From NCBI RefSeq assembly GCF_019059575.1, contig NW_024881503.1:2294001-2358000 (forward strand): a stretch of DNA of 64,000 nt, written 5' to 3'. This DNA comes from Amphibalanus amphitrite (Eukaryota; Arthropoda; Thecostraca; Balanomorpha; Balanidae). Made by a program: the position numbers and the translations under genes. The notes under the pieces are model-generated. The model did no database searches and was not told where the DNA came from. It saw only the letters and a program-made list of their open reading frames with translations. Below, piece by piece: positions 841 to 64,000 of the stretch; the first letter of the stretch is position 1, and the number at the start of each line of letters is the position of its first letter.

Positions 841-1043
841 TAACCGCAGGTTGTTTGAAAAGACAAACACTATTCGTTAGAATTGTGTTTTTCTATTGAA
901 AAACAACCGGAGCGGTCGTTCTCCGGGCTATGTTTTGCAAGTCTGGCAGCGAATCGAGACATCTTGATTGGGGCCTAGACCTAGACGAAATGTACAATCT
1001 TCGTAAAAAGTTCAGTGTATGGGCTCCCGGAGGCGATCTACCT
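841..1043 (+). mobile_element. RC unit 1, 5' part (subfamily B), interrupted
   Basis: Starts with the exact RC 5' end and follows the B-subfamily text (gaatcgagacatcttgattg), with a small extra 'cctaga' duplication. It stops at 'gatctacct', where unit 2 begins. B-type units 25 and 26 read 'ctaccttatggc' at this place, and a piece beginning 'tatggcaccgg' follows the end of unit 8 at 17236. Unit 1 therefore appears to be split by a 16.2-kb insertion. Confidence 0.75.
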
Positions 1044-1884
1044 TAACCGCAGGTTGTTTGAAAAGACAAACACTATTCGTTAGAATTGTGTTTTTCTATT
1101 GAAAAACAACCGGAGCGGTCGTTCTCCGGGCTATGTTTTGCAAGTCTGGCCGCGAATTGGGGCAACTTGGGTCAGGCCTAGACGAAATGTACAATCTTCG
1201 TAAAAAGTTCAGTGTATGGGCTCCCGGAGGCGATCTACCTGATGGCACCGGTCGCTACTCGCTTAAAACCTCGTGGCACGTGGCACGTGCGATTCCATTT
1301 TCCCCATGTTAAGTCAATGGGGTTTTGGACACTTTTTGCGCGATCGCCAATAGCGGGAAAACGAGCCAAGAAAGAGGTGGTTTTCTTCCACGCATGTTAT
1401 GGCAAACACGTTTGGGTACACGCTAGTGTGCGCCGTATAGCCCTCAGAACTTCGTAACGTGTCTTTGCACGAGGTCAAAGTTGAACTTTTTTCGCTCCCC
1501 ATGTTAAGTCAATGGGCGTTTTTGCAGAGAGTTTTTCATTCGCTCATTGTACAAAATTATATGATACGATTTTGTTTAAACTTTCAGGACTTGTTGAGAA
1601 AAGACCATAGAACATGTTGTTATGCTTCTTTAAGCTGTGCAAATTCGTTTGTTCTTTTTAGGCTCGTTTAAAAATGAAAAATTTTAACATGGAAAGTGAA
1701 TGGGAGCGTCTTTGCTGCTTAATAACTTTTTACAGTTGAGATATATTTAAGTGAAAAGTTGATAGGTTATACAACTTTTGATGCTCTTTCCAATGATATA
1801 TACAACTTTATTGCACGTGGTGCCGTTTTTGAGAAATATAGTAAAAAAGCACGACATTACCGAGATTTGAGCTCAGACCTATAT

Positions 1885-2928
1885 CGTTACGGTGTCAGGC
1901 GGACACGAGGACAGGTGGCGCCGCCGCCGCCCGCATAGCGGCGGGAATGTGAACTAACCTGTTTACCAGAGGGGTGTTCACGGGCACCGCACACTGCTGC
2001 GTGCGCTGTGTGCGGTGCGTCCAGCAGGCGTGGGGGTAGGGGATGGGTAGGCGGTTCTGACGTCACGGCTGCGTGCGGTGGACGGTCCGCTGTGGCCAGT
2101 CCCGACCGGCCACAGCGATCGCTGTGTGCGGTGACGGAAGGCTGACGTAGGGACGCAGTGGGCGGAGCTTGGAGGCTGTGTGCGGTCCGACCGCACACAG
2201 GGCCCGTGAACAGCCCTCTGATCTATGGTATGGTACCATCGGGGGACCGGCCGCCGTCGGCACCATTTCGGGACTTTGCATCGCAATAAAAGGCTTATTT
2301 ACAATTGAAAATGGACTAGCGAGAGTCGTTATGGAATCAGAATTTGATGCTCTACAAAACTAGGCTATTTTCATTGTGATGGCATCACAGACTACACCGC
2401 TAAACCCAATAAAGCAGATTTATGTCGCGTCATCGATGATTACATATAATGTTTCTTTGATATATATGTAGTCGGGTCTTTCAGCTGCGTCCCTCCCCTC
2501 CCTCGCCGCGCCGGCGGGTCGGCCATCCGCGGCTTGCCGCCCGCCGGCTGCTGGCCGGTCAGCTGGCCGGTCAGCTGGTCGCCCGCGGCTGTCGGTGCAG
2601 TGCGGGATGCCTACTTGCGGGGGGCCGTCGTGGCGGCGGCCCGGGTGGACTGGGCGAGCAGTGAGTTGGGGAGCGCTGCGCTGTCGGTGCTCTAGTTTGT
2701 ATTGCGTTCGCATGATACGGCTTGAGCCAATACAGAGTGAACTGATTGAGCTGAGCAAGTCTTTATATACATTGAAAAGTAAAGCACTTTTTACTGCATC
2801 TACGGTGAGATGCTAGATAAAATTTATGGTCTAATGGTACCCATTACTTAACAATTAAGTGAATCATTTCGTCGCTAAACTCTCGTAAATTCGTATGTCC
2901 GCCTCACTATGGAGTTTGGACCGTAACG
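1885..2928. mobile_element. M1 nested element in unit 2 (with M2)
   Basis: Ends are CGTTACGGT and ACCGTAACG, with a second inner inverted match (aggcggaca / tgtccgcct). The interior is strongly GC-rich and contains 2.5 copies of the 12-mer ctggccggtcag. The 1044-bp length includes the 254-bp M2. It is inserted between 'gacctatat' and 'tatggcc' of the RC unit. Units lacking it show a continuous 'cctatatggcc', so it is a passenger. No transposase is visible, making it MITE-like; the superfamily is unclear. Confidence 0.75.
1967..2220. mobile_element. M2 foldback MITE inside M1 (unit 2)
   Basis: Flanked by 19-bp inverted ends, CAGAGGGGTGTTCACGGGC and its complement with one mismatch. Inside are more palindromes: CTGTGTGCGGTC around one central C near the right end, CTGTGGCC/GGCCACAG in the middle, and ACCGCACAC/GTGTGCGGT near the left end. 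The CAGAGG start resembles hAT ends, but no 8-bp target duplication is visible; M1 copies without M2 read 'gtttaccatctatgg'. Confidence 0.75.
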
Positions 2929-3981
2929 TATGGCCTTTGCTCAGACAGTATACGAACAGGTGACGGGGATACCTCCCATAGAAGGATGCGACACGATTTT
3001 ACTGCTAAATAGCGGCCGGCCGCCGTGGGGACGTTTTTGTACGACTTATATCTCGGCAACCACTGGGCTGATACACGTGCGGTTTTTTGTGTGGGGTAGC
3101 TTTTTCCCTTCTTTCACATAGTGTGCTACTCTCGATGCATAACCGCAGGTTGTTTGAAGTAGACAAACACTATTCGTTAGAATTGTGTTTTTCTATTGAA
3201 AAACAACCGGAGCGGTCCTTCTCCGGGCTATGTTTTGCATGTCTGGCCGCGAATTGGGGCAACTTGGGTCAGGCCTAAACTTGTGGCTCGATTTTCTTAA
3301 AAATTTCAGTGTATGGGCTCCCGCAGGCGATCTACCTGATGGCTTCGGTCGCTACTCGCTTAAAACCTCGTGGCACGTGGCACGTGCGATTCCATTTTCC
3401 CCATGTTAAGTCAATGGGGTTTTGGACACTTTTTGCGCGATCGCGAATAGCGGGAAAACGAGCCAAGGAAGAGGTGGTTTTCTTCCCAGCATTTTATGGC
3501 AAACACGTTTGGGTACACGCTAGTGTGCGCCGTATACCCCTCAGAACTTCGTAACGTGACTTTGCACGAGGTCAAAGTTGAACTTTTTTCGCTCCCCATG
3601 TTAAGTCAATGGGCATTTTTGCAGAGACTTTTTCATTCGCTCATTGTACAAAATTATATGATACGATTTTGTTTAAACTTCCAGGACTTGTTGAGAAAAG
3701 ACCATAGAACATGTTGTTATGCTTCTTTAAGCTGTGCAAATTCGTTTGTTCTTTTTAGGCTCGTTTAAAAATGAAAAATTTTAACATGGAAAGTCAATGG
3801 GAGCGTCTTTGCTGCTTAATAACTTTTTACAGTTGAGATATATTTATGTGAAAAGTTGATAGGTTATACAACTTTTGATGCTCTTTCCAATGATATATAC
3901 AACTTTATTGCACGTGGTGCCGTTTTTGAGAAATATAGTAAAAAAGCACGACATTACCGAGATTTGAGCTCAGACCTATAT

Positions 3982-4786
3982 CGTTACGGTGTCAGGCGGA
4001 CACGAGGACAGGTGGCGCCGCCGCCGCCCGCATAGCGGCGGGAATGTGAACTAACCTGTTTACCATCTATGGTATGGTACCATCGGGGGACCGGCCGCCG
4101 TCGGCACCATTTCGGGACTTTGCATCGCAATAAAAGGCTTATTTACAATTGAAAATGGACTAGCGAGAGTCGTTATGGAATCAGAATTTGATGCTCTACA
4201 AAACTAGGCTATTTTCATTGTGATGGCATCACAGACTACACCGCTAAACCCAATAAAGCAGATTTATGTCGCGTCATCGATGATTACATATAATGTATCA
4301 TTCTTTGATATATATGTAGTCGGGTCTTTCAGCTGCGTCCCTCCCCTCCCTCGCCGCGCCGGCGGGTCGGCCATCCGTGGCTTGCCGCCCGCCGGCTGCT
4401 GGCCGGTCAGCTGGCCGGTCAGCTGGTCGCCCGCGGCTGTCGGTGCAGTGCGGGATGCCTACTTGCGGGGGGGGGGGGCCGTCGTGGCGGCGGCCCGGGT
4501 GGACTGGGCGAGCAGTGAGTTGGGGAGCGCTGCGCTGTCGGTGCTCTAGTTTGTATTGCGTTCGCATGATACGGCTTGAGCCAATACAGAGTGAACTGAT
4601 TGAGCTGAGCAAGTCTTTACATACATTGAAAAGTAAAGCACTTTTTACTGCATCTACGGTGAGATGCTAGATAAAATTTATGGTCTACCTAATGGTACCC
4701 ATTACTTAACAATTAAGTGAATCATTTCGTCGCTAAACTCTCGTAAATTCGTATGTCCGCCTCACTATGGAGTTTGGACCGTAACG
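3982..4786. mobile_element. M1 copy in unit 3
   Basis: 805 bp without M2. It differs from most M1 copies by a 12-G run (4467-4478) where others have 6 G and by a 'tatcattctttg' insertion before the GC-rich core. The same alleles occur in units 12 and 23. Confidence 0.75.
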
Positions 4787-5163
4787 TATGGCCTTTGCTC
4801 AGACAGTATACGAACAGGTGACGGGGATACCTCTAATAGAAGGATGCGACACGATTTTACTGCTAAATAGCGGCCGGCCGCCGTGGGGACGTTTTTGTAC
4901 GACTTATATCTCGGCAACCACTGGGCTGATACACGTGCGGTTTTTTTGTGTGGGGTAGCTTTTTCCCTTCTTTCACATAGTGTGCTACTCTCGATGCATA
5001 TGGGTGACCCCTAACGCACGTTCCACGTGCAAAGCCAAGAGGTGCCTGTTTTGTAATAAGCGCAATAGCTCGCGGTAATTACTGGGCCGATTGCGCTAAA
5101 ACTTGGCATGGAGGTAGACACTTTCCAGGCGATGCATTTCCATGTGTCTTGGTAGGGGTGCAA

Positions 5164-5862
5164 CTGCACGTGCGCACGTGCAGGGTGACGCTTCCAGATC
5201 TCGAGAACGGCTGGACCGATTGTGTTCAAATTTGGCATAACGCTTGATACCGATCAGTAGGTTGCAGTCATTTAGTATGTATTTCCATGTGCCACGATTG
5301 GGGTGCAACTGCACGTGCGCACGTGCAGGGTGACGCTTCCAGATCTCGAGAACGGCCGGGCCGATTGAGTTCAAATTTGGTACACCGCTAGAGACCGATT
5401 AGTAGGGTGCCGTGCGCAAGTCAGTTTGGACCCATCTTGCACGTGCGCACGTGCAGGGTGACGCTTCCAGATTTCAAGAACGGCTGGACCGATTGCACTC
5501 AAATTCGGCAAACATCTAGAGATCGATCAGTAGGGTGCCGTGCACAAGTCAGTTAGTATGTATTTCCATGTGTCACGGTTGAGATGCAACTGCACGTGCG
5601 CACGTGGAGGGGTCGTTTCAAGATCTTGAAAACGGCTGGGCCGATTGAGCTCGAATTTGGTACACCGCTAGGGACCGGCGAATAGGGTCCCATGCACAAT
5701 GCAATTGGACACAGCTTGCACGTGCGCACGTGCAGGGTGACGCTTCCAGATCTCGAAAATGGCCGAGCCGATTACACTCAAATTTGGCACACCGCTATAG
5801 ATCAGCGAGTAGGGTGCCGTGCACGTCAGTTTGTAACACACCGACTCCGGTCTGCACGTGCA
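5164..5862 (+). repeat. E-box palindrome minisatellite, unit 3
   Basis: Five copies of the CTGCACGTGCGCACGTGCAG core plus a terminal half copy, starting near 5164, 5309, 5437, 5590, 5716 and 5852. The steps alternate about 145-153 and 126-128 bp because every second monomer has an extra 'gtatgtatttccatgtg' segment, giving a dimer of about 275 bp. Between cores the text is 'cagatctcgagaacgg' then 'ctgggccgattgagctcaaa'. Confidence 0.85.
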
Positions 5863-5919
5863 AGGCTCATCCTCTCGTTTGGCGGCGGGCGTTTTTGCTG
5901 CGTTTACAAAGGTGCTTGC

Positions 5920-5970
5920 TCAAACAACCTGCGGTCCCGCGATGCGGAGCCCAGCATCGCAGATGCTGGG
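5920..5970 (+). other. 3' terminus of the RC unit: subterminal inverted repeat and hairpins
   Basis: TCAAACAACCTGCGGT (5920-5935) is the exact reverse complement of bases 3-18 of the unit's 5' end. It is followed by two overlapping stem-loops: GCGATGC/GCATCGC (5939-5945 with 5954-5960) and CCCAGCATC/GATGCTGGG (5950-5958 with 5962-5970, loop GCA). They share bases and so exclude each other. This arrangement is that of Helentron/Helitron2 3' ends, where the hairpin is thought to act in ending rolling-circle transfer. Confidence 0.75.
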
Positions 5971-6811
5971 TAACCGCAGGTTGTTTGAAAAGACAAACAC
6001 TATTCGTTAGAATTGTGTTTTTCTATTGAAAAACAACCGGAGCGGTCCTTCTCCGGGCTATGTTTTGCAAGTCTGGCCGCGAATTGGGGCAACTTGGGTC
6101 AGGCCTAGACGAATCGCTCAATCTTCGTAAAAAGTTCAGGGTATGGGCTCCCGGGGGCGATCTACCTGATGGCACCGGTCGCTACTCGCTTAAAACCTCG
6201 TGGCACGTGGCACGTGCGATTCCATTTTCCCCATGTTAAGTCAACGGGGTTTTGGACACTTTTTGCGCGATCGCCAATGGCGGGAAAACGAGCCAAGGAA
6301 GAGGTGGTTTTCTTCCCAGCATTTTATGGCAAACACGTTTGGGTACATGCTGGTGTGCGCCGTATACCCCTCAGAACTTCGTAACGTGTCTTTGCACGAG
6401 GTCAAAGTTGAATTTTTTTCGCTCCCCATGTTAAGTCAATGGGCGTTTTTGCAGAGACTTTTTCATTCGCTCATTGTACAAAATTATATGATACGATTTT
6501 GTTTAAACTTTTAGGACTTGTTGAGAAAAGACCATAGAATATGTTGTTATGCTTCGTTAAGCTGTCAGAATTCGTTTGTTCTTTTTGAGCTCGTTTAAAG
6601 AAGAATTTTTTTAACATGCAAAGTCAATGGGAGCGTCTTTGCTGCTTTATAACTTTTTACGTTATAGATATATTTAAGTGAAAAGTTGATAGGTTATACA
6701 ACTTTTGATGCTCTTTCCAATGATATATACAACTTTATTGCACGTGGTGCCGTTGTTGAGAAATATAGTAAAAAAGCACGACATTACCGAGATTTGAGCT
6801 CAGACCTATAT

Positions 6812-7608
6812 CGTTACGGTGTCAGGCGGACACCAGGACAGGTGGCGCCGCCGCCGCCCGCATAGCGGCGGGAATGTGAACTAACCTGTTTACCACCTAT
6901 GGTATGGTACCATCGGGGGACCGGCCGCCGTCGGCACCATTTCGGGACTTTGCATCGCAATAAAAGGCTTATTTACAATTGAAAATGGACTAGCGAGAGT
7001 CGTTATGGAATCAGAATTTGATGCTCTACAAAACTAGGCTATTTTCATTGTGATGGCACCACAGACTACACCGCTAACCCCAATAAAGCAGATTTATGTC
7101 GCGTCATCGATGATTACATATAATGTTTCTTTGATATATATGTAGTCGGGTCTTTCAGCTGCGTCCCTCCCCTCCCTCGCCGCGCCGGCGGGTCGGCCAT
7201 CCGCGGCTTGCCGCCCGCCGGCTGCTGGCCGGTCAGCTGGCCGGTCAGCTGGTCGCCCGCGGCTGTCGGTGCAGTGCGGGATGCCTACTTGCGGGGGGCC
7301 GTCGTGGCGGCGCGGCCCGGGTGGACTGGGCGAGCAGTGAGTTGGGGAGCGCTGCGCTGTCGGTGCTCTAGTTTTTATTGCGTTCGCATGATACGGCTTG
7401 AGCCAATACAGAGTGAACTGATTGAGCTGAGCAAGTCTTTATATACATTGAAAAGTAAAGCACTTTTTACTGCATCTACGGTGAGATGCTAGATAAAATT
7501 TATGGTCTACCTAATGGTACCCATTACTTAACAATTAAGTGAATCATTTCGTCGCTAAACTCTCGTAAATTCGTATGTCCGCCTCACTATGGAGTTTGGA
7601 CCGTAACG
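6812..7608. mobile_element. M1 copy in unit 4
   Basis: 797 bp, no M2. The M2 site reads 'gtttaccacctatgg', and a 2-bp difference lies in the GC-rich core ('gtggcggcgcggcccggg'). Confidence 0.75.
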
Positions 7609-12074: not shown

Positions 12075-12106
12075 TGGTGACGTCGACGGCGACCGTGACG
12101 TCACCA
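12075..12106. repeat. inverted repeat with CRE-like arms
   Basis: Perfect 10-bp arms TGGTGACGTC and GACGTCACCA separated by 12 bp. It is conserved in unit 8 at 15718-15749. Each arm holds a TGACGTC or GACGTCA core. Confidence 0.7.
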
Positions 12107-17235: not shown

Positions 17236-17333
17236 TATGGCACCGGTCGCTACTCGCTTAAAACCTCGTGGCACGTGGCACGTGCGATTCCATTTTCCCC
17301 ATGTTAAGTCAACGGGGTTTTGGACACTTTTTG
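17236..17333 (+). mobile_element. RC unit 1, continuation fragment
   Basis: Begins 'tatggcaccggtcgctactc' directly after the hairpin of unit 8 and ends at 'ggacactttttg'. Its start completes the B-type 'ctacct|tatggc' broken at 1043/1044. If so, the insertion point was T^T with no target duplication. A new RC 5' end interrupts it at 17334. Confidence 0.65.
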
Positions 17334-18315: not shown

Positions 18316-19156
18316 TAACCGCAGGTTGTTTGAAAAGACAAACACTATTCGTTAGAATTGTGTTTTTCTATTGAAAAACAACCGGAGCGGTCGTTCTCCG
18401 GGCTATGTTTTGCAAGTCTGGCCGCGAATTGGGGCAACTTGGGTCAGGCCTAGACGAAATGTACAATCTTCGTAAAAAGTTCAGTGTATGGGCTCCCGGA
18501 GGCGATCTACCTGATGGCACCGGTCGCTACTCGCTTAAAACCTCGTGGCACGTGGCACGTGCGATTCCATTTTCCCCATGTTAAGTCAATGGGGTTTTGG
18601 ACACTTTTTGCGCGATCGCCAATAGCGGGAAAACGAGCCAAGAAAGAGGTGGTTTTCTTCCACGCATGTTATGGCAAACACGTTTGGGTACACGCTAGTG
18701 TGCGCCGTATAGCCCTCAGAACTTCGTAACGTGTCTTTGCACGAGGTCAAAGTTGAACTTTTTTCGCTCCCCATGTTAAGTCAATGGGCGTTTTTGCAGA
18801 GAGTTTTTCATTCGCTCATTGTACAAAATTATATGATACGATTTTGTTTAAACTTTCAGGACTTGTTGAGAAAAGACCATAGAACATGTTGTTATGCTTC
18901 TTTAAGCTGTGCAAATTCGTTTGTTCTTTTTAGGCTCGTTTAAAAATGAAAAATTTTAACATGGAAAGTGAATGGGAGCGTCTTTGCTGCTTAATAACTT
19001 TTTACAGTTGAGATATATTTAAGTGAAAAGTTGATAGGTTATACAACTTTTGATGCTCTTTCCAATGATATATACAACTTTATTGCACGTGGTGCCGTTT
19101 TTGAGAAATATAGTAAAAAAGCACGACATTACCGAGATTTGAGCTCAGACCTATAT

Positions 19157-20200
19157 CGTTACGGTGTCAGGCGGACACGAGGACAGGTGGCGCCGCCGCC
19201 GCCCGCATAGCGGCGGGAATGTGAACTAACCTGTTTACCAGAGGGGTGTTCACGGGCACCGCACACTGCTGCGTGCGCTGTGTGCGGTGCGTCCAGCAGG
19301 CGTGGGGGTAGGGGATGGGTAGGCGGTTCTGACGTCACGGCTGCGTGCGGTGGACGGTCCGCTGTGGCCAGTCCCGACCGGCCACAGCGATCGCTGTGTG
19401 CGGTGACGGAAGGCTGACGTAGGGACGCAGTGGGCGGAGCTTGGAGGCTGTGTGCGGTCCGACCGCACACAGGGCCCGTGAACAGCCCTCTGATCTATGG
19501 TATGGTACCATCGGGGGACCGGCCGCCGTCGGCACCATTTCGGGACTTTGCATCGCAATAAAAGGCTTATTTACAATTGAAAATGGACTAGCGAGAGTCG
19601 TTATGGAATCAGAATTTGATGCTCTACAAAACTAGGCTATTTTCATTGTGATGGCATCACAGACTACACCGCTAAACCCAATAAAGCAGATTTATGTCGC
19701 GTCATCGATGATTACATATAATGTTTCTTTGATATATATGTAGTCGGGTCTTTCAGCTGCGTCCCTCCCCTCCCTCGCCGCGCCGGCGGGTCGGCCATCC
19801 GCGGCTTGCCGCCCGCCGGCTGCTGGCCGGTCAGCTGGCCGGTCAGCTGGTCGCCCGCGGCTGTCGGTGCAGTGCGGGATGCCTACTTGCGGGGGGCCGT
19901 CGTGGCGGCGGCCCGGGTGGACTGGGCGAGCAGTGAGTTGGGGAGCGCTGCGCTGTCGGTGCTCTAGTTTGTATTGCGTTCGCATGATACGGCTTGAGCC
20001 AATACAGAGTGAACTGATTGAGCTGAGCAAGTCTTTATATACATTGAAAAGTAAAGCACTTTTTACTGCATCTACGGTGAGATGCTAGATAAAATTTATG
20101 GTCTAATGGTACCCATTACTTAACAATTAAGTGAATCATTTCGTCGCTAAACTCTCGTAAATTCGTATGTCCGCCTCACTATGGAGTTTGGACCGTAACG
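19157..20200. mobile_element. M1 copy in unit 11 (with M2)
   Basis: 1044 bp, matching the unit 2 copy throughout where compared, including 'ggtctaatggtacc', which lacks the 'ctac' found in M1 copies without M2. Confidence 0.75.
19239..19492. mobile_element. M2 foldback MITE in unit 11
   Basis: 254 bp, matching the M2 of unit 2 at offset 17272; it belongs to the same block duplication and is not an independent insertion. Confidence 0.75.
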
Positions 20201-21253
20201 TATGGCCTTTGCTCAGACAGTATACGAACAGGTGACGGGGATACCTCCCATAGAAGGATGCGACACGATTTTACTGCTAAATAGCGGCCGGCCGCCGTGG
20301 GGACGTTTTTGTACGACTTATATCTCGGCAACCACTGGGCTGATACACGTGCGGTTTTTTGTGTGGGGTAGCTTTTTCCCTTCTTTCACATAGTGTGCTA
20401 CTCTCGATGCATAACCGCAGGTTGTTTGAAGTAGACAAACACTATTCGTTAGAATTGTGTTTTTCTATTGAAAAACAACCGGAGCGGTCCTTCTCCGGGC
20501 TATGTTTTGCATGTCTGGCCGCGAATTGGGGCAACTTGGGTCAGGCCTAAACTTGTGGCTCGATTTTCTTAAAAATTTCAGTGTATGGGCTCCCGCAGGC
20601 GATCTACCTGATGGCTTCGGTCGCTACTCGCTTAAAACCTCGTGGCACGTGGCACGTGCGATTCCATTTTCCCCATGTTAAGTCAATGGGGTTTTGGACA
20701 CTTTTTGCGCGATCGCGAATAGCGGGAAAACGAGCCAAGGAAGAGGTGGTTTTCTTCCCAGCATTTTATGGCAAACACGTTTGGGTACACGCTAGTGTGC
20801 GCCGTATACCCCTCAGAACTTCGTAACGTGACTTTGCACGAGGTCAAAGTTGAACTTTTTTCGCTCCCCATGTTAAGTCAATGGGCATTTTTGCAGAGAC
20901 TTTTTCATTCGCTCATTGTACAAAATTATATGATACGATTTTGTTTAAACTTCCAGGACTTGTTGAGAAAAGACCATAGAACATGTTGTTATGCTTCTTT
21001 AAGCTGTGCAAATTCGTTTGTTCTTTTTAGGCTCGTTTAAAAATGAAAAATTTTAACATGGAAAGTCAATGGGAGCGTCTTTGCTGCTTAATAACTTTTT
21101 ACAGTTGAGATATATTTATGTGAAAAGTTGATAGGTTATACAACTTTTGATGCTCTTTCCAATGATATATACAACTTTATTGCACGTGGTGCCGTTTTTG
21201 AGAAATATAGTAAAAAAGCACGACATTACCGAGATTTGAGCTCAGACCTATAT

Positions 21254-22058
21254 CGTTACGGTGTCAGGCGGACACGAGGACAGGTGGCGCCGCCGCCGCC
21301 CGCATAGCGGCGGGAATGTGAACTAACCTGTTTACCATCTATGGTATGGTACCATCGGGGGACCGGCCGCCGTCGGCACCATTTCGGGACTTTGCATCGC
21401 AATAAAAGGCTTATTTACAATTGAAAATGGACTAGCGAGAGTCGTTATGGAATCAGAATTTGATGCTCTACAAAACTAGGCTATTTTCATTGTGATGGCA
21501 TCACAGACTACACCGCTAAACCCAATAAAGCAGATTTATGTCGCGTCATCGATGATTACATATAATGTATCATTCTTTGATATATATGTAGTCGGGTCTT
21601 TCAGCTGCGTCCCTCCCCTCCCTCGCCGCGCCGGCGGGTCGGCCATCCGTGGCTTGCCGCCCGCCGGCTGCTGGCCGGTCAGCTGGCCGGTCAGCTGGTC
21701 GCCCGCGGCTGTCGGTGCAGTGCGGGATGCCTACTTGCGGGGGGGGGGGGCCGTCGTGGCGGCGGCCCGGGTGGACTGGGCGAGCAGTGAGTTGGGGAGC
21801 GCTGCGCTGTCGGTGCTCTAGTTTGTATTGCGTTCGCATGATACGGCTTGAGCCAATACAGAGTGAACTGATTGAGCTGAGCAAGTCTTTACATACATTG
21901 AAAAGTAAAGCACTTTTTACTGCATCTACGGTGAGATGCTAGATAAAATTTATGGTCTACCTAATGGTACCCATTACTTAACAATTAAGTGAATCATTTC
22001 GTCGCTAAACTCTCGTAAATTCGTATGTCCGCCTCACTATGGAGTTTGGACCGTAACG
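21254..22058. mobile_element. M1 copy in unit 12
   Basis: 805 bp with the 12-G run, the same allele as in units 3 and 23. Confidence 0.75.
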
Positions 22059-22435
22059 TATGGCCTTTGCTCAGACAGTATACGAACAGGTGACGGGGAT
22101 ACCTCTAATAGAAGGATGCGACACGATTTTACTGCTAAATAGCGGCCGGCCGCCGTGGGGACGTTTTTGTACGACTTATATCTCGGCAACCACTGGGCTG
22201 ATACACGTGCGGTTTTTTTGTGTGGGGTAGCTTTTTCCCTTCTTTCACATAGTGTGCTACTCTCGATGCATATGGGTGACCCCTAACGCACGTTCCACGT
22301 GCAAAGCCAAGAGGTGCCTGTTTTGTAATAAGCGCAATAGCTCGCGGTAATTACTGGGCCGATTGCGCTAAAACTTGGCATGGAGGTAGACACTTTCCAG
22401 GCGATGCATTTCCATGTGTCTTGGTAGGGGTGCAA

Positions 22436-23134
22436 CTGCACGTGCGCACGTGCAGGGTGACGCTTCCAGATCTCGAGAACGGCTGGACCGATTGTGTTCA
22501 AATTTGGCATAACGCTTGATACCGATCAGTAGGTTGCAGTCATTTAGTATGTATTTCCATGTGCCACGATTGGGGTGCAACTGCACGTGCGCACGTGCAG
22601 GGTGACGCTTCCAGATCTCGAGAACGGCCGGGCCGATTGAGTTCAAATTTGGTACACCGCTAGAGACCGATTAGTAGGGTGCCGTGCGCAAGTCAGTTTG
22701 GACCCATCTTGCACGTGCGCACGTGCAGGGTGACGCTTCCAGATTTCAAGAACGGCTGGACCGATTGCACTCAAATTCGGCAAACATCTAGAGATCGATC
22801 AGTAGGGTGCCGTGCACAAGTCAGTTAGTATGTATTTCCATGTGTCACGGTTGAGATGCAACTGCACGTGCGCACGTGGAGGGGTCGTTTCAAGATCTTG
22901 AAAACGGCTGGGCCGATTGAGCTCGAATTTGGTACACCGCTAGGGACCGGCGAATAGGGTCCCATGCACAATGCAATTGGACACAGCTTGCACGTGCGCA
23001 CGTGCAGGGTGACGCTTCCAGATCTCGAAAATGGCCGAGCCGATTACACTCAAATTTGGCACACCGCTATAGATCAGCGAGTAGGGTGCCGTGCACGTCA
23101 GTTTGTAACACACCGACTCCGGTCTGCACGTGCA
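22436..23134 (+). repeat. E-box palindrome minisatellite, unit 12
   Basis: Five cores plus a half copy, with the same monomer order as unit 3. Confidence 0.85.
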
Positions 23135-23241
23135 AGGCTCATCCTCTCGTTTGGCGGCGGGCGTTTTTGCTGCGTTTACAAAGGTGCTTGCTCAAACAAC
23201 CTGCGGTCCCGCGATGCGGAGCCCAGCATCGCAGATGCTGG

Positions 23242-23299
23242 TAACCGCAGGTTGTTTGAAAAGACAAACACTATTCGTTAGAATTGTGTTTTTCTATTG
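23242..23299 (+). mobile_element. RC unit 13, 58-bp 5'-end fragment
   Basis: Only the first 58 bases of a unit, to 'tttttctattg', before unit 14 begins with its own exact 5' end. Similar tiny 5'-only pieces are units 27 and 29. Confidence 0.8.
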
Positions 23300-39350: not shown

Positions 39351-40191
39351 TAACCGCAGGTTGTTTGAAAAGACAAACACTATTCGTTAGAATTGTGTTT
39401 TTCTATTGAAAAACAACCGGAGCGGTCCGTCTCCGGGCTATGTTTTGCAAGTCTGGCCGCGAATTGGGGCAACTTGGGTCAGGCCTAAACTTGTGGCTCG
39501 ATTTTCTTAAAAATTTCAGTGTATGGGCTCCCGCAGGCGATCTACCTGTTGGCACCGGTCGCTACTCGCTTAAAACCTCGTGGCACGTGGCACGTGCGAT
39601 TCCATTTTCCCCATGTTAAGTCAACGGGGTTTTGGACACTTTTTGCGCGATCGGGAATAGCGGAAAAACGAGCCAAGGAAGAGGTGGTTTTCTTCCCAGC
39701 ATTTTATGGCAAACACGTTTGGGTACACGCTGGTGTGCGCCGTATACCCCTCAGAACTTCGTAACGTGTCTTTGCACGAGGTCAAAGTTGAACTTTTTTC
39801 GCTCCCCATGTTAAGTCAATGGGCGTTTTTGCAGAGACTTTTTCATTCGCTCATTGTACAAAATTATATGATACGATTTTGTTTAAACTTTCAGGACTTG
39901 TTGAGAAAAGACCATAGAACATGTTGTTATGCTTCTTTAAGCTGTGCAAATTCGTTTGTTCTTTTTAGGCTCGTTTAAAAATGAAAAATTTTAACATGGA
40001 AAGTGAATGGGAGCGTCTTTGCTGCTTAATAACTTTTTACAGTTGAGATATATTTAAGTGAAAAGTTGATAGGTTATACAACTTTTGATGCTCTTTCCAA
40101 TGATATATACAACTTTATTGCACGTGGTGCCGTTTTTGAGAAATATAGTAAAAAAGCACGACATTACCGAGATTTGAGCTCAGACCTATAT

Positions 40192-40989
40192 CGTTACGGT
40201 GTCAGGCGGACACGAGGACAGGTGGCGCCGCCGCCGCCCGCATAGCGGCGGGAATGTGAACTAACCTGTTTACCATCTATGGTATGGTACCATCGGGGGA
40301 CCGGCCGCCGTCGGCACCATTTCGGGACTTTGCATCGCAATAAAAGGCTTATTTACAATTGAAAATGGACTAGCGAGAGTCGTTATGGAATCAGAATTTG
40401 ATGCTGTACAAAACTAGGCGCCTATTTTCATTGTGATGGCATCACAGACTACACCGCTAACCCCAATAAAGCAGATTTATGTCGCGTCATCGATGATTAC
40501 ATATAATGTTTCTTTGATATATATGTAGTCGGGTCTTTCAGCTGCGTTCCTCCCCTCCCTCGCCGCGCCGGCGGGTCGGCCATCCGCGCCCTGCCGCCCG
40601 CCGGCTGCTGGCCGGTCAGCTGGCCGGTCAGCTGGTCGCCCGCGGCTGTCGGTGCAGTGCGGGATGCCTACTTGCGGGGGGCCGTCGTGGCGGCGGCCCG
40701 GGTGGACTGGGCGAGCAGTGAGTTGGGGAGCGCTGCGCTGTCGGTGCTCTAGTTTGCATTGCGTTCGCATGATACGGCTTGAGCCAATACAGAGTGAACT
40801 GATTGAGCTGAGCAAGTCTTTATATACATTGAAAAGTAAAGCACTTTTTACTGCATCTACGGTGAGATGCTAGATAAAATTTATGGTCTACCTAATGGTA
40901 CCCATTACTTAACAATTAAGTGAATCATTTCGTCGCTAAACTCTCGTAAATTCGTATGTCCGCCTCACTATGGAGTTTGGACCGTAACG
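40192..40989. mobile_element. M1 copy in unit 22
   Basis: 798 bp with the unit 5 alleles (gctgtacaaaactaggcgcc, gcgccctgccg), but the right flank is the short 'tatggtc' form. Confidence 0.75.
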
Positions 40990-41365
40990 TATGGTCTTTG
41001 CTCAGACAGTATACGAACAGGTGACGGGGATACCTCCCATAGAAGGATGCGACACGATTTTACTGCTAAATAGCGGCCGGCCGCCGTGGGGACGTTTTTG
41101 TACGACTTATATCTCGGCAACCACTGGGCTGATACACGTGCGGTTTTTTGTGTTGGGTAGCTTTTTTCCTTCTTTCACATAGTGTGCTACTCTCGATGCA
41201 TATGGGTGACCCCTAACGCACGTTCCACGTGCAAAGCCAAGAGGTGCCTGTTTTGTAATAAGTGCAATAGCTCGCGGTAATTACTGGGCCGATTGCGCTA
41301 AAACTTGGCATGGAGGTAGACACATTCCAGGCGATGCATTTCCACGTGTCTTGGTAGGGGTGCAA

Positions 41366-41920
41366 CTGCACGTGCGCACGGGCAGGGTGACGCTTCCAGA
41401 TGTCGAGAACGGCTGGGCCGATTGTGATCAAACTTGGCACACCGCTAGAGGCTGGTAAGTAGGGTGCCGTGCACAAGTCAGATGGGACCCGCTATGCACG
41501 TGCGCACGTGCAGGCTGACGCTTCCAGATCTCAAGAACGGCTGGGCCGACTCTGCTGAAATTTGGCATACCGCTAGAGACTGGTTAGTAGGGTGCCGTGC
41601 ACAAGTCAGTTAGTATGTATTTTCATGTGCCACGGTTGGGGTGCAGTTGCACCAGCGCACGTGTAGGGGTCGCTTCCAGATCTTGAAATTGACGGGGCTG
41701 ATTGAGCTCCAATTTGGTACACCGCTAGAAACCGGCGAATAGAGTGCCGTGCACAAGTCAATTGGGGCCTAGGCTGCACGTGCGCACGTGCAGGGTGTCG
41801 CTTCCAGATCTCGAAAACGGCCGGGTCGATTGCACTCAAATTTGGCACACCGCTATAGACCGACGAATAGGGTGCCGTGCACGTCAGTCCGTAGCACACC
41901 GACTGCGGTCTGCACGTGCA
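41366..41920 (+). repeat. E-box palindrome minisatellite, unit 22
   Basis: Four cores plus a half copy. The third is badly decayed (gttgcaccagcgcacgtg, near 41647). Confidence 0.8.
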
Positions 41921-42008
41921 AGGCTCATCCTCTCGTTTGGTGGCGGGCGTTTTTGCTGCGTTTACAAAGGTGCTTGCTCAAACAACCTGCGGTCCCGCGA
42001 TGCGGAGC

Positions 42009-42027
42009 CCGGCATCGCAGATGCCGG
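42009..42027 (+). other. 3' hairpin of unit 22 with compensated stem
   Basis: CCGGCATC, loop GCA, GATGCCGG. Other units read CCAGCATC/GATGCTGG. The A-to-G change in the left arm and T-to-C in the right arm restore pairing (A-T to G-C). Confidence 0.8.
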
Positions 42028-48635: not shown

Positions 48636-50449
48636 TAACCGCAGGTTGTTTGAAAAGACAAACACTATTCGTTAGAATTGTGTTTTTCTATTGAAAAACA
48701 ACCGGAGCGGTCGTTCTCCGGGCTATGTTTTGCAAGTCTGGCAGCGAATCGAGACATCTTGATTGGGGCCTAGACGAAATGTACAATCTTCGTAAAAAGT
48801 TCAGTGTATGGGCTCCCGGAGGCGATCTACCTTATGGCACCGGTCGCTACTCGCTTAAAACCTCGTGGCACGTGGCACGTGCGATACCATTTTCCCCATG
48901 TTAAGTCAACGGGGTTTTGGACACTTTTTGCGAGATCGCGAATGGCGGGAAAACGAGCCAAGGAAGAGGTGGTTTTCTTCCGAGCATTTTATGGCAAACA
49001 CGTTCCGGTACACGCCAGTGTGCGCTGTATACCCCTCAGAATCTCGGAACGTGTCTTTGCACGAGGTCAAAGTTGGAATTTTGCTGTGTCCCATGTTAAG
49101 TCAATGGACGGCGATGTCGAGACTTTGCAGAGACATTTTCATTCGATCTTTGTACAAAATTTTAGAGATAGATTTCGCCCAAACTCTTATATCTTGTAGA
49201 GAAAGGAACATAGTACATGCTGGTGTGCTTCGTTAAGCTGGCAGAAATCGTTTTTTCTAATAAAGTTCGTTTGAAAATGAAAATTTTTAACATGGAAAGT
49301 CAATGGGTGCGTCTTTATTCCTCTATAACTTTTATTGTTAGTAATATACATAGGTGAAAAGTTCATATAATATACAACATTTGATGCTCTTTCCACTGAT
49401 GTATAGAACGTCACTGCACGATGTGCCGTTTTCAAGAAAAGTTGTAAAAAAGCAGGGCTCGACTGTGACTTGAACCCAACCACAATAGAATATACGAACA
49501 GGTGAAGGGGACACCTCCCATGTGCGGACGCGACACTGATTATTGCTAAATATTAGCAGTCGGCCGCCGTGGGGGCGCCTTTACAAACCTTATATCTCTG
49601 CAACCACTGGACCGATTCACTCGCAGTCTTTTGTGTGGGATAGCTTCTTCCTTTCTTACACGTAGTGTGCTACTCTCGATACGTATGGGTCACCCCTTAT
49701 GCACGTGCCACGTGCAAAACGAAGAGGCGTCAGTTTGGTAAGAAGTCTAATTACTCTGTAGTTAGTTTGCCGATTGCGCTGATACTTGGCTGGGATGTAG
49801 GCAACCGCCGCGCAATGCATTTCCATGTGTCACGGTTGGGGTGCAGCTGCACGTGCGCACGGGCAGGGTGACGATTCCAGATCTCGAGAACGGCTGGGCC
49901 GATTGTGATCAAAGTTGGCACACCGCTAGGGATCGGCGAGTAGGGTGCCGTGCACAAGTCAGATGGGGCCCAGTTTGCACGTGCGCACGTGCAGGCTGAC
50001 GCTTCCATATCTCAAGAACGGCTGGACCGACTGTGCTCAAATTTGGCATACCACTAGAGACTGGTTAGTAGGGTGCCGTGCACAAGTCAGTAAGTATGTA
50101 TTTTCATGTGCCACGGTTGGGGTACAACTGCACGTGCGCACGTGTAGGGGTCGTTTCCAGATCTTGGAAACGGCTGGGCCGAATGCGATTAAATTTGGTA
50201 CATCGCTAGAAACCAGCGAATAGAGTGCCGTGCACAAGTCAATTGGGACCCAGCTTGCACGTGCGCACGTGCAGGGTGCCGCTTCAAGATCTCGAAAACG
50301 GCCGGGCCGATTGCACCCAAATTTTGCACACCGCTCTAGACGGGCGAATAGGGTGCCGTGCACGTCAGTTTTTAGCACACCCACTCCGGTCTGCACGTGC
50401 AAGGCTCATCCTCTCGTTTGGCGGTTGGCGTTTTTGCTGCGTTACAGAG
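48636..50449 (+). mobile_element. RC unit 26 (subfamily B), lacks the last about 70 bp
   Basis: 1814 bp, nearly full length, stopping at 'gctgcgttacagag' where 'gtgcttgctcaaac' is expected, so the subterminal inverted repeat and hairpin are absent. Confidence 0.83.
49848..50401 (+). repeat. E-box palindrome minisatellite, unit 26
   Basis: Four cores, near 49848, 49975, 50128 and 50255, plus a half copy. Confidence 0.82.
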
Positions 50450-50664
50450 TAACCGCAGGTTGTTTGAAAAGACAAACACTATTCGTTAGAATTGTGTTTT
50501 TCTACGAATAGGGTGCCGTGCACGTCAGTTTTTAGCACACCCACTCCGGTCTGCACGTGCAAGGCTCATCCTCTCGTTTGGCGGTTGGCGTTTTTGCTGC
50601 GTTACAGAGTAACCGCAGGTTGTTTGAAAAGACAAACACTATTCGTTAGAATTGTGTTTTTCTA
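50345..50664 (+). repeat. tandem duplication, two copies of 160 bp
   Basis: 50345-50504 and 50505-50664 read the same. Each copy holds the last 105 bp of unit 26 (from 'cgaatagggtgccg') and the first 55 bp of a new RC unit, so the duplication spans a unit junction. Confidence 0.85.
50450..50504 (+). mobile_element. RC unit 27, 55-bp 5'-end fragment
   Basis: First 55 bases of a unit ending 'gtgtttttcta', then return to the unit 26 tail through the 160-bp duplication. It is best read as a product of that duplication. Confidence 0.75.
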
Positions 50665-52573: not shown

Positions 52574-52591
52574 TAACCGCAGGTTGTTTGA
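52559..52591. repeat. 33-bp palindrome at the unit 28/29 junction
   Basis: The 3' subterminal repeat TCAAACAACCTGCGGT abuts the 5' repeat ACCGCAGGTTGTTTGA with one base between, giving perfect 16-bp arms. This joins the two element ends directly. Confidence 0.85.
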
Positions 52592-52662
52592 AATAGACAA
52601 ACACTATTCGTTAGAATTGTGTTTTTCTATTGAAAAACAACCGGAGCGGTCCTTCTCCGGGC
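52574..52662 (+). mobile_element. RC unit 29, 89-bp 5'-end fragment
   Basis: First 89 bases of a unit (variant 'gaaatagac'), cut at 'ctccgggc' in place of the expected 'tatgttt'. It includes the CCGGAG/CTCCGG subterminal stem. Confidence 0.8.
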
Positions 52663-57942: not shown

Positions 57943-58889
57943 AGGCTCATCCTCTCGTTTGGCGGCGGGCGTTTTTGCTGCGTTTACAAAGGTGCTTGCT
58001 CAAACAACCTGCGGTCCCGCGATGCGGAGCCCAGCATCGCAGATGCTGGGTAACCGCAGGTTGTTTGAAAAGACAAACACTATTCGTTAGAATTGTGTTT
58101 TTCTATTGAAAAACAACCGGAGCGGTCCTTCTCCGGGCTATGTTTGCAAAGTTGGCCTGAGATTGGGGCAACTTGGTCGCAGCCTAGAGTTTTGCGTTTA
58201 GGATCGTAAAAATTTCAGGGTATAGACTTTTGCAGGTGATCTACCTGATGGTACCGGTCGCTACTCGCAACAAAAATCATTGCGCGTGCCACGTGCAATT
58301 GCATTTTCCCCATGTTAAGTCAACGGGGTTTTGGACACTTTTTGCGCGATCGCCAATGGCGGGAAAACGAGCCAAGAAGGAGGTGGTTTTCTTCCCAGCA
58401 TTTTATGGCAAATACGTTCTGGTACACGCCAGTGTGCGCCGTATACCCGTCAGAATTCGTTAACTTGAGTTGCACGAGTTTGAAGTTGAACTTTTTTCGC
58501 TCCCCATGTTAAGTCAATGGGCGTTTTTGCAGAGGCATTTTCATTCGCTCATTGTACAAAATTTTATGATACGATTTTGTTTAAACTTTCAGGACTTGTT
58601 GAGAAAAGACCATAGAACATGTTGTTATGCTTCGTTAAGCTGTCAGAATTCGTTTGTTCTTTCTGAGCTCGTTTAAAGAAGAATTTTTTTAACATGCAAA
58701 GTCAATGGGAGCGTCTTTGGTGCTTAATAACTTTGTACCTTGAAGACATATTCAAGTGAAAAGTTGATAGGTTATACAACTTTTGATGCTCTTTCCAATG
58801 ATATATACAACGTTATTGCACGTGCTGCCGTTTTTGAGAAATGTAGTAAAAAAGCACGACATTACCGAGATTTGAGCTCAGACCTCTAT

Positions 58890-59701
58890 CGTTACGGTGC
58901 CAGGCGGACACGAGGACAGGTGGCGCCGCCGCCGCCAGCATAGCGGCGGGAATGTGAACTAACCTGTTTACCATCTATGGTATGGGGGACCATCGGGGGA
59001 CCGGCCGCCGTCGGCACCATTTCGGGCTTAGTTTTGACTTTGCATCGCAATAAAAGGCTTATTTACAATTGAAAATGGACTAGCGAGAGTCGTTATGGAA
59101 TCAGAATTTGATGCTCTACAAAACTAGGCTATTTTCATTGTGATGGCATCACAGACTACACCGCTAACCCCAATAAAGCAGATTTATGTCGCGTTATCGA
59201 TGATTACATGTAATGTTTCTTTGGTATATATGTTTGTAGTCGGGTCTTTCAGCTGCCTCCCTCTCCTCCCTCGCCGCGCCGGCGGGTCGGCCATCCGCGG
59301 CTTGCCGCCCGCCGGCTGCTGGCCGGTCAGCTGGCCGGTCAGCTGGTCGCCCGCGGCTGTCGGTGCAGTGCGGGATGCCTACTTGCGGGGGGCCGTCGTG
59401 GCGGCGGTCCGGGTGGACTGGGCGAGCAGTGAGTTGGGGAGCACTGCGCTGTCTGGTGCTCTAGTTTGTATTGCGCTCGCATGATACGGCTTGAGCCAAT
59501 ACAGAGTAAACTGATTGAGCTGAGCAAGTCTTTATATACATTGAAAAGTAAAGCACTTTTTACTGCATCTACGGTGAGATGCTAGAGAAAATTTATGGCC
59601 TACCTAATGGTACCCATTACTTAACAATTAAGTGAATCATTTCGTCGCTAAACTCTCGTAAATTCGTATGTCCGCCTTACTATGGAGTTTGGACCGTAAC
59701 G
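58890..59701. mobile_element. M1 copy in unit 32
   Basis: 812 bp with the unit 31 alleles plus a few private changes (gtcgcgttatcg, gcggtccgggtgg). Confidence 0.74.
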
Positions 59702-60084
59702 TATGGCCTTTGCTCAGACAGTATACGAACAGGTGACGGGGATACCTCCCATAGAAGGATGCGACACGATTTTACTGCTAAATAGCGGCCGGCCGCCGTG
59801 GGGAGTCTGGGGACGTTTTTGTACGACTTATATCTCGGCAACCACTGGGCTGATACACTTACGGTTTTTTGTGTGAGGTAGCTTTTTCCCTTCTTTCATA
59901 TAGTGTGCTACTCTTGATGCATATGGGTGACCCCTAACGCACGTTCCACGTGCAAAGCCAAGAGGTGCCTGTTTTGTAATAAGCGCAATAGCTCGGTAAT
60001 TACTGGGCCGATTGCGCTAAAACTTGGCAAGGAGGTAGACACTTTCCAGGCGATGCATTTCCATGTGTCACGGTTGGGGTGCCG

Positions 60085-60639
60085 CTGCACGTGCGCACGG
60101 GCAGGGTGACGATTCCAGATCTCGAGAACGGCTGGGCCGATTGTGATCAAAGTTGGCACACCGTTAGGGCTCGGCGAGTAGGGTGCCGTGCACAAGTCAG
60201 ATGGGACCCAGTTTGCACGTGCGCACGTGCAGGCTGACTCTTCCATATCTCAAGAACGGCTGGACCGACTGTGCTCAAATTTGGCATACCACTAGAGACT
60301 GGTTAGTAGGGTGCCGTGCACAAGCCAGTAAGTATGTATTTTTATGTGCCGCGGTTGGGGTGCAGCTGCACGTGCGCACCTGTAGGGGTCGCTTCCAGAT
60401 CTTGGAAACGGCTGGGCCGATTCAGATTAAATTTGGTACATCGCTAGAAACCGGCGAATAGAGTGCCGTGCACAAGTCAATTGGGGCCCAGGCTGCACGT
60501 GCGCACGTGCAGGGTGTCGCTTCCAGATCTCGAAAACGGCCGGGTCGATTGCACTCAAATTTGGCACACCGCTATAGACCGGCGAATAGGGTGCCGTGCA
60601 CGTCAGTCCGTAGCACACCGACTCCGGTCTGCACGTGCA
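60085..60639 (+). repeat. E-box palindrome minisatellite, unit 32
   Basis: Four cores plus a half copy. Confidence 0.82.
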
Positions 60640-61590
60640 AGGCTCATCCTCTCGTTTGGCGGCGGGCGTTTTTGCTGCGTTTACAAAGGTGCTTGCTCAA
60701 ACAACCTGCGGTCCCGCGATGCGGAGCCCAGCATCGCAGATGCTGGGTAACCGCAGGTTGTTTGAAAATGACAAACACTATTCGTTAGAATTGTGTTTTT
60801 CTATTGAAAAACAACCGGAGCGGTCCTTCTCCGGGCTATGTTTTGCAAGTCTGGCCGCGAATTGGGGCAACTTGACCGGGGCCTAAACGTGCATTGCGAT
60901 TTTCGTAAAAAGTTCAGTGTATGGGCTCCCGGAGGCGATCTACCTGATGGCACCGGTCGCTACTCGCTTAAAACCTCGTGGCACGTGGCACGTGCGATTC
61001 CATTTTTCCCATAGTAAGTCAATGGGGGTTTGGGACACTTTTTGCGCAATCGCGAATAGCGGGAAAACGAGCCAAGGAAGGGGTGGTTTTCATCCCAACA
61101 TTTTATGGCAAACACGTTTGGGTACACGCTAGTGTGCGCCGTATACCCCTCAGAACTTCGTAACGTGTCTTTGCACGAGGTCAAAGTTGAACTTTTTTCG
61201 CTCCCCATGTTAAGTCAATGGGCGTTTTTGCAGAGACTTTTTCATTCGCTCATTGTACAAAATTATATGATACGATTTTGTTTAAACTTTCAGGACTTGT
61301 TGAGAAAAGACCATAGAACATGTTGTTATGCTTCTTTAAGCTGTGCAAATTCGTTTGTTCTTTTTAGGCTCGTTTAAAAATGAAAAATTTTAACATGGAA
61401 AGTCAATGGGAGCGTCTTTGGTGCTTAATAACTTTGTACCTTGAAGACATATTCAAGTGAAAAGTTGATATTTTATACAACTTTTGATGCTCTTTCCAAT
61501 GATATATACAACTTTATTGCACGTGGTGCCGTTTTTGAGAAATATAGTAAAAAAGCACGACATTACCGAGATTTGAGCTCAGACCTATAT

Positions 61591-62634: not shown

Positions 62635-63010
62635 TATGGCCTTTGCTCAGACAGTATACGAACAGGTGACGGGGATACCTCCCATAGAAGGATGCGACAC
62701 GATTTTACTGCTAAATAGCGGCCGGCCGCCGTGGGGACGTTTTTGTACGACTTATATCTCGGCAACCACTGGGCTGATACACGTGCGGTTTTTTGTGTGG
62801 GGTAGCTTTTTCCCTTCTTTCACATAGTGTGCTACTCTCGATGCATATGGGTGACCCCTAACGCACGTTCCACGTGCAAAGCCAAGAGGTGCCTGTTTTG
62901 TAATAAGCGCAATAGCTCGCGGTAATTACTGGGCCGATTGCGCTAAAACTTGGCATGGAGGTAGACACTTTCCAGGCGATGCATTTCCATGTGTCTTGGT
63001 AGGGGTGCAA

Positions 63011-63716
63011 CTGCACGTGCGCACGTGCAGGGTGACGCTTCCAGATCTCGAGAACGGCTGGACCGATTGTGTTCAAATTTGGCATAACGCTTGATACCGA
63101 TCAGTAGGTTGCAGTCATTTAGTATGTATTTCCATGTGCCACGATTGGGGTGCAACTGCACGTGCGCACGTGCAGGGTGACGCTTCCAGATCTCGAGAAC
63201 GGCCGGGCCGATTGAGTTCAAATTTGGTACACCGCTAGAGACCGATTAGTAGGGTGCCGACTGCCGTGCGCAAGTCAGTTTGGACCCATCTTGCACGTGC
63301 GCACGTGCAGGGTGACGCTTCCAGATCTCAAGAACGGCTGGACCGATTGCACTCAAATTCGGCAAACATCTAGAGATCGATCAGTAGGGTGCCGTGCACA
63401 AGTCAGTTAGTATGTATTTCCATGTGTCACGGTTGAGATGCAACTGCACGTGCGCACGTGGAGGGGTCGTTTCAAGATCTTGAAAACGGCTGGGCCGATT
63501 GAGCTCGAATTTGGTACACCGCTAGAGACCGGCGAATAGGGTCCCATGCACAATGCAATTGGACACAGCTTGCACGTGCGCACGTGCAGGGTGACGCTTC
63601 CAGATCTCGAAAATGGCCGAGCCGATTACACTCAAATTTGGCACACCGCTATAGATCAGCGAGTAGGGTGCCGTGCACGTCAGTTTGTAGCACACCGACT
63701 CCGGTCTACACGTGCA
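63011..63716 (+). repeat. E-box palindrome minisatellite, unit 33
   Basis: Five cores plus a half copy; the half copy has lost its symmetry (ctacacgtgca). Confidence 0.83.
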
Positions 63717-63822
63717 AGGCTCATCCTCTCGTTTGGCGGCGGGCGTTTTTGCTGCGTTTACAAAGGTGCTTGCTCAAACAACCTGCGGTCCCGCGATGCG
63801 GAGCCCAGCATCGCAGATGCTG

Positions 63823-64000
63823 TAACCGCAGGTTGTTTGAAAAGACAAACACTATTCGTTAGAATTGTGTTTTTCTATTGAAAAACAACCGGAGCGGTCG
63901 TTCTCCGGGCTATGTTTTGCAAGTCTGGCAGCGAATCGAGACATCTTGATTGGGGCCTAGACGAAATGTACAATCTTCGTAAAAAGTTCAGTGTATGGGC
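63823..64000 (+). mobile_element. RC unit 34 (subfamily B start), runs off the window
   Basis: Exact 5' end followed by B-type text (gcgaatcgagacatcttgat), so the array continues past the right edge. Confidence 0.83.

Follow-up and report, generated by a model that had tools for sequence, protein, structure and literature searches.

A head-to-tail array of units with Helitron2/Helentron-like ends in the barnacle Amphibalanus amphitrite, probably grown by 5'-anchored and often one-ended rolling-circle transposition

Background

The non-autonomous Helentrons HINE and DINE-1, as described in parts of PMC4067079, carry an inverted repeat that begins 2 nt from the 5' end and is subterminal at the 3' end, together with a 3' palindrome; they produce no target duplication, have no coding capacity and in some cases harbor internal tandem repeats, and DINE-1 also has a short inverted repeat within its 5' end. 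Parts of PMC5148889 report asymmetric terminal inverted repeats in the Fusarium Helitron2 elements (FoHeli), hairpins at both ends of FoHeli1 and FoHeli2, joined-end forms, and one triple tandem in Metarhizium acridum. According to excerpts of PMC4778049, Helraiser requires its 5' end, its 3' end is not strictly necessary, and the 3' hairpin serves as terminator. The tandem arrays of bat and silkmoth Helitron clusters are attributed to missed termination in a passing mention (PMC4067079). Here we describe a stretch of 64,000 nt from the genome of A. amphitrite (the window; contig NW_024881503.1, hereafter C6, C6:2294001-2358000) that holds a head-to-tail array of putative non-autonomous rolling-circle units, and we compare it with the rest of the 807.6-Mb assembly (2,644 contigs). 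Copying starts at the same 5' base (R|TAACCG, the bar marking the joint) in every young copy read; some copies extend to the terminal 3' hairpin, and many others break off before it.

Ends of the unit and their relationships

The preliminary description of the window, made from its letters alone, had proposed about 34 same-strand units with a 16-bp inverted repeat and a 3' hairpin and without a transposase, and all of these features hold. There are 30 exact 5' termini (TAACCGCAGGTTGTTTG), all on the + strand, or 33 termini (TAACCGCAGG) on one strand when three variant ends (11300, 14950 and 17334) are counted, and a further 5' end without the leading T at 17978 brings the total to 34. The 16-mer ACCGCAGGTTGTTTGA occurs 31 times in the window and its 3'-side complement 17 times, as against 0 in 200 dinucleotide shuffles. 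The repeat begins 2 nt from the 5' end, and its inverted 3' copy is separated from the terminus by 34 nt where the element ends in GG and by 35 nt where it ends in GGG. The 3' hairpin, CC(C)AGCATC-GCA-GATGCTGG(G), which is complete in 16 copies, forms the last 21 nt and is flush with the terminus (DNA fold z -2.23; 4/200 shuffles as good). Moreover, the first 76 nt form one long stem-loop (DNA fold z -4.39; 0/200 shuffles as good), a feature absent from the preliminary description. The longest closed open reading frame in the window has 155 aa, no transposase being found there, and an Rfam search of the window gave no match reaching the gathering score. Variant family members (L039, L049-L051, L063 and C52:487805-487882) show a second 5' end, TAACCGAAGGTTTGTTG, 1,357-bp tandem units that have the ends alone in common, and joints just 77 bp apart.

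Judged by its termini only, the unit is a non-autonomous rolling-circle element with Helitron2/Helentron/DINE-like ends. It has the asymmetric inverted repeat of Helitron2 and Helentron (near-terminal at the 5' end, subterminal at the 3' end), their 3' hairpin together with a hairpin/inverted repeat inside the 5' end, and no target duplication at empty sites, where a 1-bp T duplication is possible. Insertion at TT, which defines Helentrons sensu stricto, is not found, and we do not call the unit a Helentron because TT is not its target and no partner was found; the Helentron/Helitron2 kinship suggested earlier stands for the termini of the non-autonomous units and not for the target. The unit resembles HINE and DINE-1 in each of the characters given above, whereas its hairpin is flush with the 3' terminus, its target is purine|T(A) rather than TT, it has no terminal T run and no Helentron partner was found (compared with parts of PMC4067079). 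Similarly, the asymmetric repeats and the hairpins at both ends recall FoHeli, whereas the terminal letters and the target (TNAT|A in FoHeli) differ, and the one or a few tandem cases in the consulted parts of PMC5148889 contrast with thousands of units here. Truncations, read-through and one 5' end abutting the 3' end of another copy are shared with Helitron1/Helraiser as excerpted from PMC4778049. However, a canonical Helitron (Helitron1) needs 5'-TC, CTRR-3' and a hairpin about 11 nt inside, and it was rejected for this unit, which has TA...GG and a hairpin flush with the end. A cut-and-paste transposon with terminal inverted repeats, or a miniature inverted-repeat transposable element, was also rejected, as the 3' repeat copy is internal and there is no duplication of 2 bp or more.

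Young copies with one start and many stops

Sequences from the ends were counted over the whole assembly with at most 2 mismatches (reversed controls gave 0-2 hits). The first 20 bases of the unit occur at 3,826 genome places, bases 58-77 at 3,472 and a 29-mer of the 3' end at 1,824, giving a genome-wide ratio of 5' to 3' ends of about 2:1; the 29-mer is the more stringent of these probes, a difference that by our estimate accounts for only a small part of this gap. Taking some 3,800 copies of about 2 kb each, we arrive at a rough figure of about 1% of the genome for the family. Among the first 100 of 3,407 exact 5' ends, 96 are clustered; the 85 neighbouring pairs that they form include no opposite-strand pair, and 22 are spaced by <260 bp, with a minimum of 18 bp.

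A 1,401-bp search from the unit at 3140 was scored for 40 places, the best of 2,698 first-look candidates and hence selected for likeness. These are about 100% identical, and 18, including 3 in the window, reach the full score. The 15 full-score copies outside the window are distributed over 11 contigs, and an exact 5' terminus is present in all of them (15/15). On the left, 4 of them adjoin a complete 3' end and 11 adjoin other sequence, represented by 10 different sequences. Six of the 15 carry the 3' hairpin, and the remaining 9 are truncated, with breaks at unit positions about 2365-2745 of 2831; 8 of these truncated copies abut another exact 5' terminus directly and one does so via a 23-nt filler. 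Two of the nine (on C444) have a common right-hand context and different left ones, so that the breaks represent at most eight independent events. These truncated copies are too recent for slow decay to explain their truncation. The young copies read lie mostly within or against existing copies, whose orientation they match.

The family is thus dispersed, mobile and very young, with recent spread to many contigs. The preliminary description had regarded the array as a young satellite: its youth is borne out by these identical bodies, and the term satellite is only half right, since the family is dispersed and mobile and not one local satellite. The growth proposed there, from an exact 5' end to a point at or short of the 3' hairpin, agrees with the young copies and with a 4,926-bp block in the window that has element termini at its edges (see below). 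Beside the tandem arrays mentioned for bat and silkmoth (PMC4067079), truncated young copies and 5'-only fragments are what is added in the present case. The titles and abstract openings of the papers found by literature search do not name a stacking of 5' stubs, which is not proof of absence. Tandem Helitron arrays are already known, and what seems new is their extent here, along with the traces left of where copying began and halted.

Target sites and joints between copies

The target is purine|T(A), not TT, and no target duplication of 2 bp or more is present at the site tested. When the nested unit at 39351-42027 is removed, CTTTA|TATACATTG is restored exactly, a form that occurs uninterrupted 13 times in the window; in line with the preliminary description nothing is duplicated, a 1-bp T duplication being indistinguishable from none, and nothing is lost. 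The unit broken at 1043 probably continues at 17236: the rejoined letters CTACCTTATGG are present in two other units of the window and are one base off CTACCTGATGG, which is carried by 21 units, and 1044-17235 is probably a 16-kb multi-unit insertion. In addition, a copy on C1 (both ends read, ~2.7 kb apart) lies within a TTAGG-type repeat whose register is kept. The base following a complete 3' end, where no unit comes next, is T in 16/16 distinct flanks and TA follows in 14, while a purine precedes the 5' end in 45 of 50 distinct junctions that are not on a hairpin end. Where the target is TT, TG or TC the element start is still TA, so at least the A belongs to the element.

The tandem joint is GG|TAACCG, with one, two or three G, and it is found in exact form 743 times in the genome. 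Pooling the left junctions from the window and from all loci with ends gave 70 distinct ones, 3 of them complete 3' ends and 67 other. A unit could be assigned to 45 of these 67, the other 22 being host or unassigned. In all unit-assignable joints the orientation is the same (45/45), and the last base before the 5' end is a purine in 38/45 (background 0.50, p 1.3e-6). Between neighbouring exact 5' ends we found 5' fragments of 18-244 nt, and some of the spacings also hold a repeated left flank. On C9, for example, 5' pieces of ~26-32 and 73-74 nt are separated by repeats of the host flank (about 153-159, 15, 10 and 15 bp), a pattern that would suit several starts of copying at the host/element joint, each followed by falling back. 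Pieces of ~40-60 nt from the 5' end, with no 3' end within the 1.7-1.9 kb read downstream, are present at L093-L095 and may be stubs in host DNA or starts of other bodies; the piece at L094 (C11:1660667) lies upstream of a cuticle-protein gene (PF00379), which, like the TTAGG-type repeats, is in keeping with an arthropod genome. Finally, palindromes (TGCACGTGCGCACGTGCA) stand immediately upstream of some breaks.

How the array may have grown

An invariant start combined with an often variable end is as expected of one-ended rolling-circle transposition, in keeping with the end requirements of Helraiser (PMC4778049), and we consider it probable that the array results from 5'-anchored, often one-ended transposition of this kind, plausibly at nick sites at the 5' ends of resident units. 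Judging from the single orientation and the lack of displaced remainders beside the joints, the entry point of new copies would be the 5' joint of a resident unit, which is also the presumed nick site. A trans-acting Rep/helicase would nick that 5' end (R^TAACCG), the 5' end of the new copy would be joined at the nick to the upstream 3'-OH, and its 3' end, complete or premature, would be ligated to the 5' T of the resident. Successive rounds, often abortive, would then produce head-to-tail stacks in which the 5' ends are exact, the 3' ends ragged and some 5' fragments very short; segmental copying of multi-unit blocks and junction-spanning duplications would also contribute. We advance more tentatively, as an idea that may or may not hold, that integration takes place preferentially at the resident 5' terminus: incoming or re-copied strands would be received by the Rep nick there (R^TAACCG), so that stacking goes one way, and abortive rounds would leave 5' stubs of 18-250 nt and duplicated host flank.

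Several observations weigh against growth at resident 5' ends by one-ended transposition. A Rep/helicase element sharing these ends, for which the preliminary description had suggested a search, was not found in the sequence read: of the 148 PF14214 matches, 30 loci were examined, and none of these contains the ends of the window units or DNA resembling the window. Internal sites are also hit, certainly by the nested insertion at 39351 and probably by that of 1044-17235, which means that 5' ends are not the only targets. Of 39 assignable truncated joints, 21 have T as the native base following the break (background 0.26, p 1.6e-4), an excess that would also suit insertion at internal R|T sites with subsequent loss of the remainder. 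In-place re-copying was rejected as a general rule, as the downstream unit is the best match for some 5' fragments and not for others: at L086 the match to the downstream unit is 100%, against at most 95.4% elsewhere in that locus, while for other fragments the downstream unit ranks 4 of 32 and 8 of 34. Stops at false terminators are not supported either, hairpins before the break not being significantly enriched (7/45 vs 9%, p 0.11).

An alternative that may hold some truth, but that we doubt as the whole explanation, is that joined-end circles or rolling-circle concatemers, formed by end bypass, integrate as head-to-tail blocks in one event. The exact hairpin-to-start joints are what such molecules would leave; a multi-unit block has moved as one and 1044-17235 is a probable multi-unit insertion; adjacent identical pairs one unit length apart occur 3 times among the 40 scored places (best of 2,698); and joined-end forms are on record for Fusarium Helitron2 in parts of PMC5148889. 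However, adjacent units are hardly more alike than non-adjacent ones, both in the first 800 bp (mean 84.3 vs 83.6, median 89.5 vs 88.0) and in the last 900 bp (mean 81.9 vs 79.1), and the truncated units and the 18-244-nt 5' fragments are left unexplained. Because multi-unit blocks move, circles or concatemers very likely contribute beside one-ended transposition.

Less probable, and in our judgement unlikely, is ordinary rolling-circle insertion at internal purine|T sites with later loss of the downstream remainder via same-orientation recombination. One exact and one probable nested insertion show that internal sites are used, and the excess of T after the breaks agrees with it, but about half of the joints should then be inverted and none of the 45 assignable ones is. 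Moreover, T comes next in just 2 of the 9 youngest truncated copies, and all nine breaks fall within the final 470 bp of an ascertainable 1,270 bp.

Unequal crossing-over or gene conversion in a satellite is very improbable: uniform orientation, an array-like layout and some adjacent identical copies would suit it, but the joints pair non-homologous positions (various internal points with unit base 1), the copied block begins and ends at element termini, and 11 other contigs carry identical bodies; satellite DNA spread via unequal exchange was rejected on the same grounds of non-homologous joints, block edges at termini and dispersed identical copies. An assembly artefact is the least credible of all. 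Long near-identical repeats and a mirrored pair on C32 (L052/L053), possibly a mis-join, would speak for it, but the units diverge by as much as 20%, unique host DNA lies left of the array, and the same ends recur on many contigs (small 5' pieces, the C1 copy, array joints).

Rep elements elsewhere in the genome

The Rep loci L009-L037, many of them near-identical, have the Helitron-type GLPH in 29/29 cases, and L038 has no intact motif. A second Rep type is represented by four matches (C97/C796, C433 and C122), multi-exon or broken in appearance, which presumably resemble Helitron2/Helentron Reps; its rare exons are found at C97:80450-82371, C796 and C433, with a DUF6570 domain upstream in C97. 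None of the ends of the window unit is present in 13.2 kb around the C97 match. The ends are likewise absent between tandem Reps of two families, with none at L070 and just loose 3-4-error matches on the opposite strand at L069. We also found 17 places where a 5' end has a different continuation: one shares C1 with a Rep place, 428 kb away, and the others are on contigs without any of the 148 PF14214 matches.

The Rep-bearing Helitrons on C2217, C173, C2314, C64, C575, C1505 and C29 themselves lie on the same strand at even intervals; on C2217, for example, three Rep places follow one another every 13.0 kb. The members of one Rep family (L022-L029 and L033), found on several contigs, share 3.5 kb at 100% identity. 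At L069 (C2217:22500-30500), CTAG|TC joints are seen by eye, and this canonical-looking Helitron array harbors relatives, at about 73% identity, of the 128/145-bp TGCACGTGCGCACGTGCAG repeats of the window units; the two element classes therefore have internal repeats in common.

Organization of the array

The coordinates of the main features are given in Table 1. The array lies on a single contig and has a total length of about 70.1 kb, past the window and in line with the over 63 kb given earlier; its proposed start at 841 is upheld by the single genome match of the flank, and its final unit breaks off at reference position 2340 without a 3' end. The units have two main lengths, about 1.87 and 2.7 kb, and are mosaics of both forms. 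Their first 800 bp are about 80-100% alike, leaving aside the copies at 11300 and 14950, whose bodies did not align. The two copies of the two-unit block agree over 4,926 bp (0 mismatches); each is bounded by element termini on both sides, and their neighbours differ. One unit is present in triplicate (3140, 20412 and 42040), the copy at 42040 deviating only around bases 19-22.

Table 1. Features of the window (positions counted from its first base; reference positions are those of the unit at 58051)
Feature	Position	Strand	Remarks
Host flank left of the array	1..840	.	DNA search with 541-840 matches this genome place only
Head-to-tail array of putative non-autonomous rolling-circle units	841..64000	+	Ends at about C6:2364919, 6.9 kb downstream of the window
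First 203 bp of a unit	841..1043	+	Broken at reference position 196 (CTACCT|)
Two-unit block (truncated + full unit)	1044..5970	+	Source or copy of 18316-23241
2,831-bp unit	3140..5970	+	Bases 3300-4700 found unchanged at 15 places on 11 other contigs
Probable continuation of the unit broken at 1043	17236..17333	+	TATGGC.., reference 198-294
Two-unit block, second copy	18316..23241	+	Sequence identity to 1044-5970
58-nt 5' fragment	23242..23299	+	Next exact 5' end abuts directly
Complete unit nested in another unit	39351..42027	+	At CTTTA|TATACATTG
160-bp tandem duplication across a 5' junction	50345..50664	+	Comprises 105 bp from the left flank and 55 bp from the 5' end
89-nt 5' fragment	52574..52662	+	Next exact 5' end abuts directly
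Reference full-length unit, 2,697 bp	58051..60747	+	Exact 5' end through 3' hairpin
5' terminal stem-loop	58051..58126	+	ACCGCAGGTTGTTTGA pairs with internal AAACAACC..GCGGT
3' end	60698..60747	+	Subterminal inverted copy CAAACAACCTGCGG, then terminal hairpin CCCAGCATCGCAGATGCTGGG

Just 3' of the 16-bp inverted repeat (bases 19-22), where the variants AAAAG, AAGTAG, AAAATG and AAATAG are found, units otherwise identical over 2.8 kb (3140 and 42040) differ, which makes a hot spot for change possible at this position; in the copy at L089 the first 18 nt are present twice. Five units carry near reference position 923 an insertion of ~254 bp, at 1967-2220 in one of them, with terminal inverted repeats (CAGAGGG.TGTTCACGGGC), which looks like a small non-autonomous DNA transposon. 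A 367-bp unit in two tandem copies (97%) at 16208-16941 is by eye unrelated to the array unit, and similar sequence is present at L095. On C32, the mirrored loci L052 and L053 lie about 28 kb apart with the same features and could represent a large palindrome or an assembly mis-join.

Significance

Experimental knowledge of how Helitrons start, stop and form tandems comes mainly from one reconstructed element. If resident 5' termini do receive new copies, the arrays would be a fossil record in which single events of initiation and termination by a rolling-circle transposase of a eukaryote are preserved. Because many very young natural copies have the same body and different ends, the points where copying started and stopped can be read off, and the choice between end bypass, circles and self-targeting becomes directly testable. 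Such arrays would also represent a route from mobile element to satellite-like array without need for unequal crossing-over.

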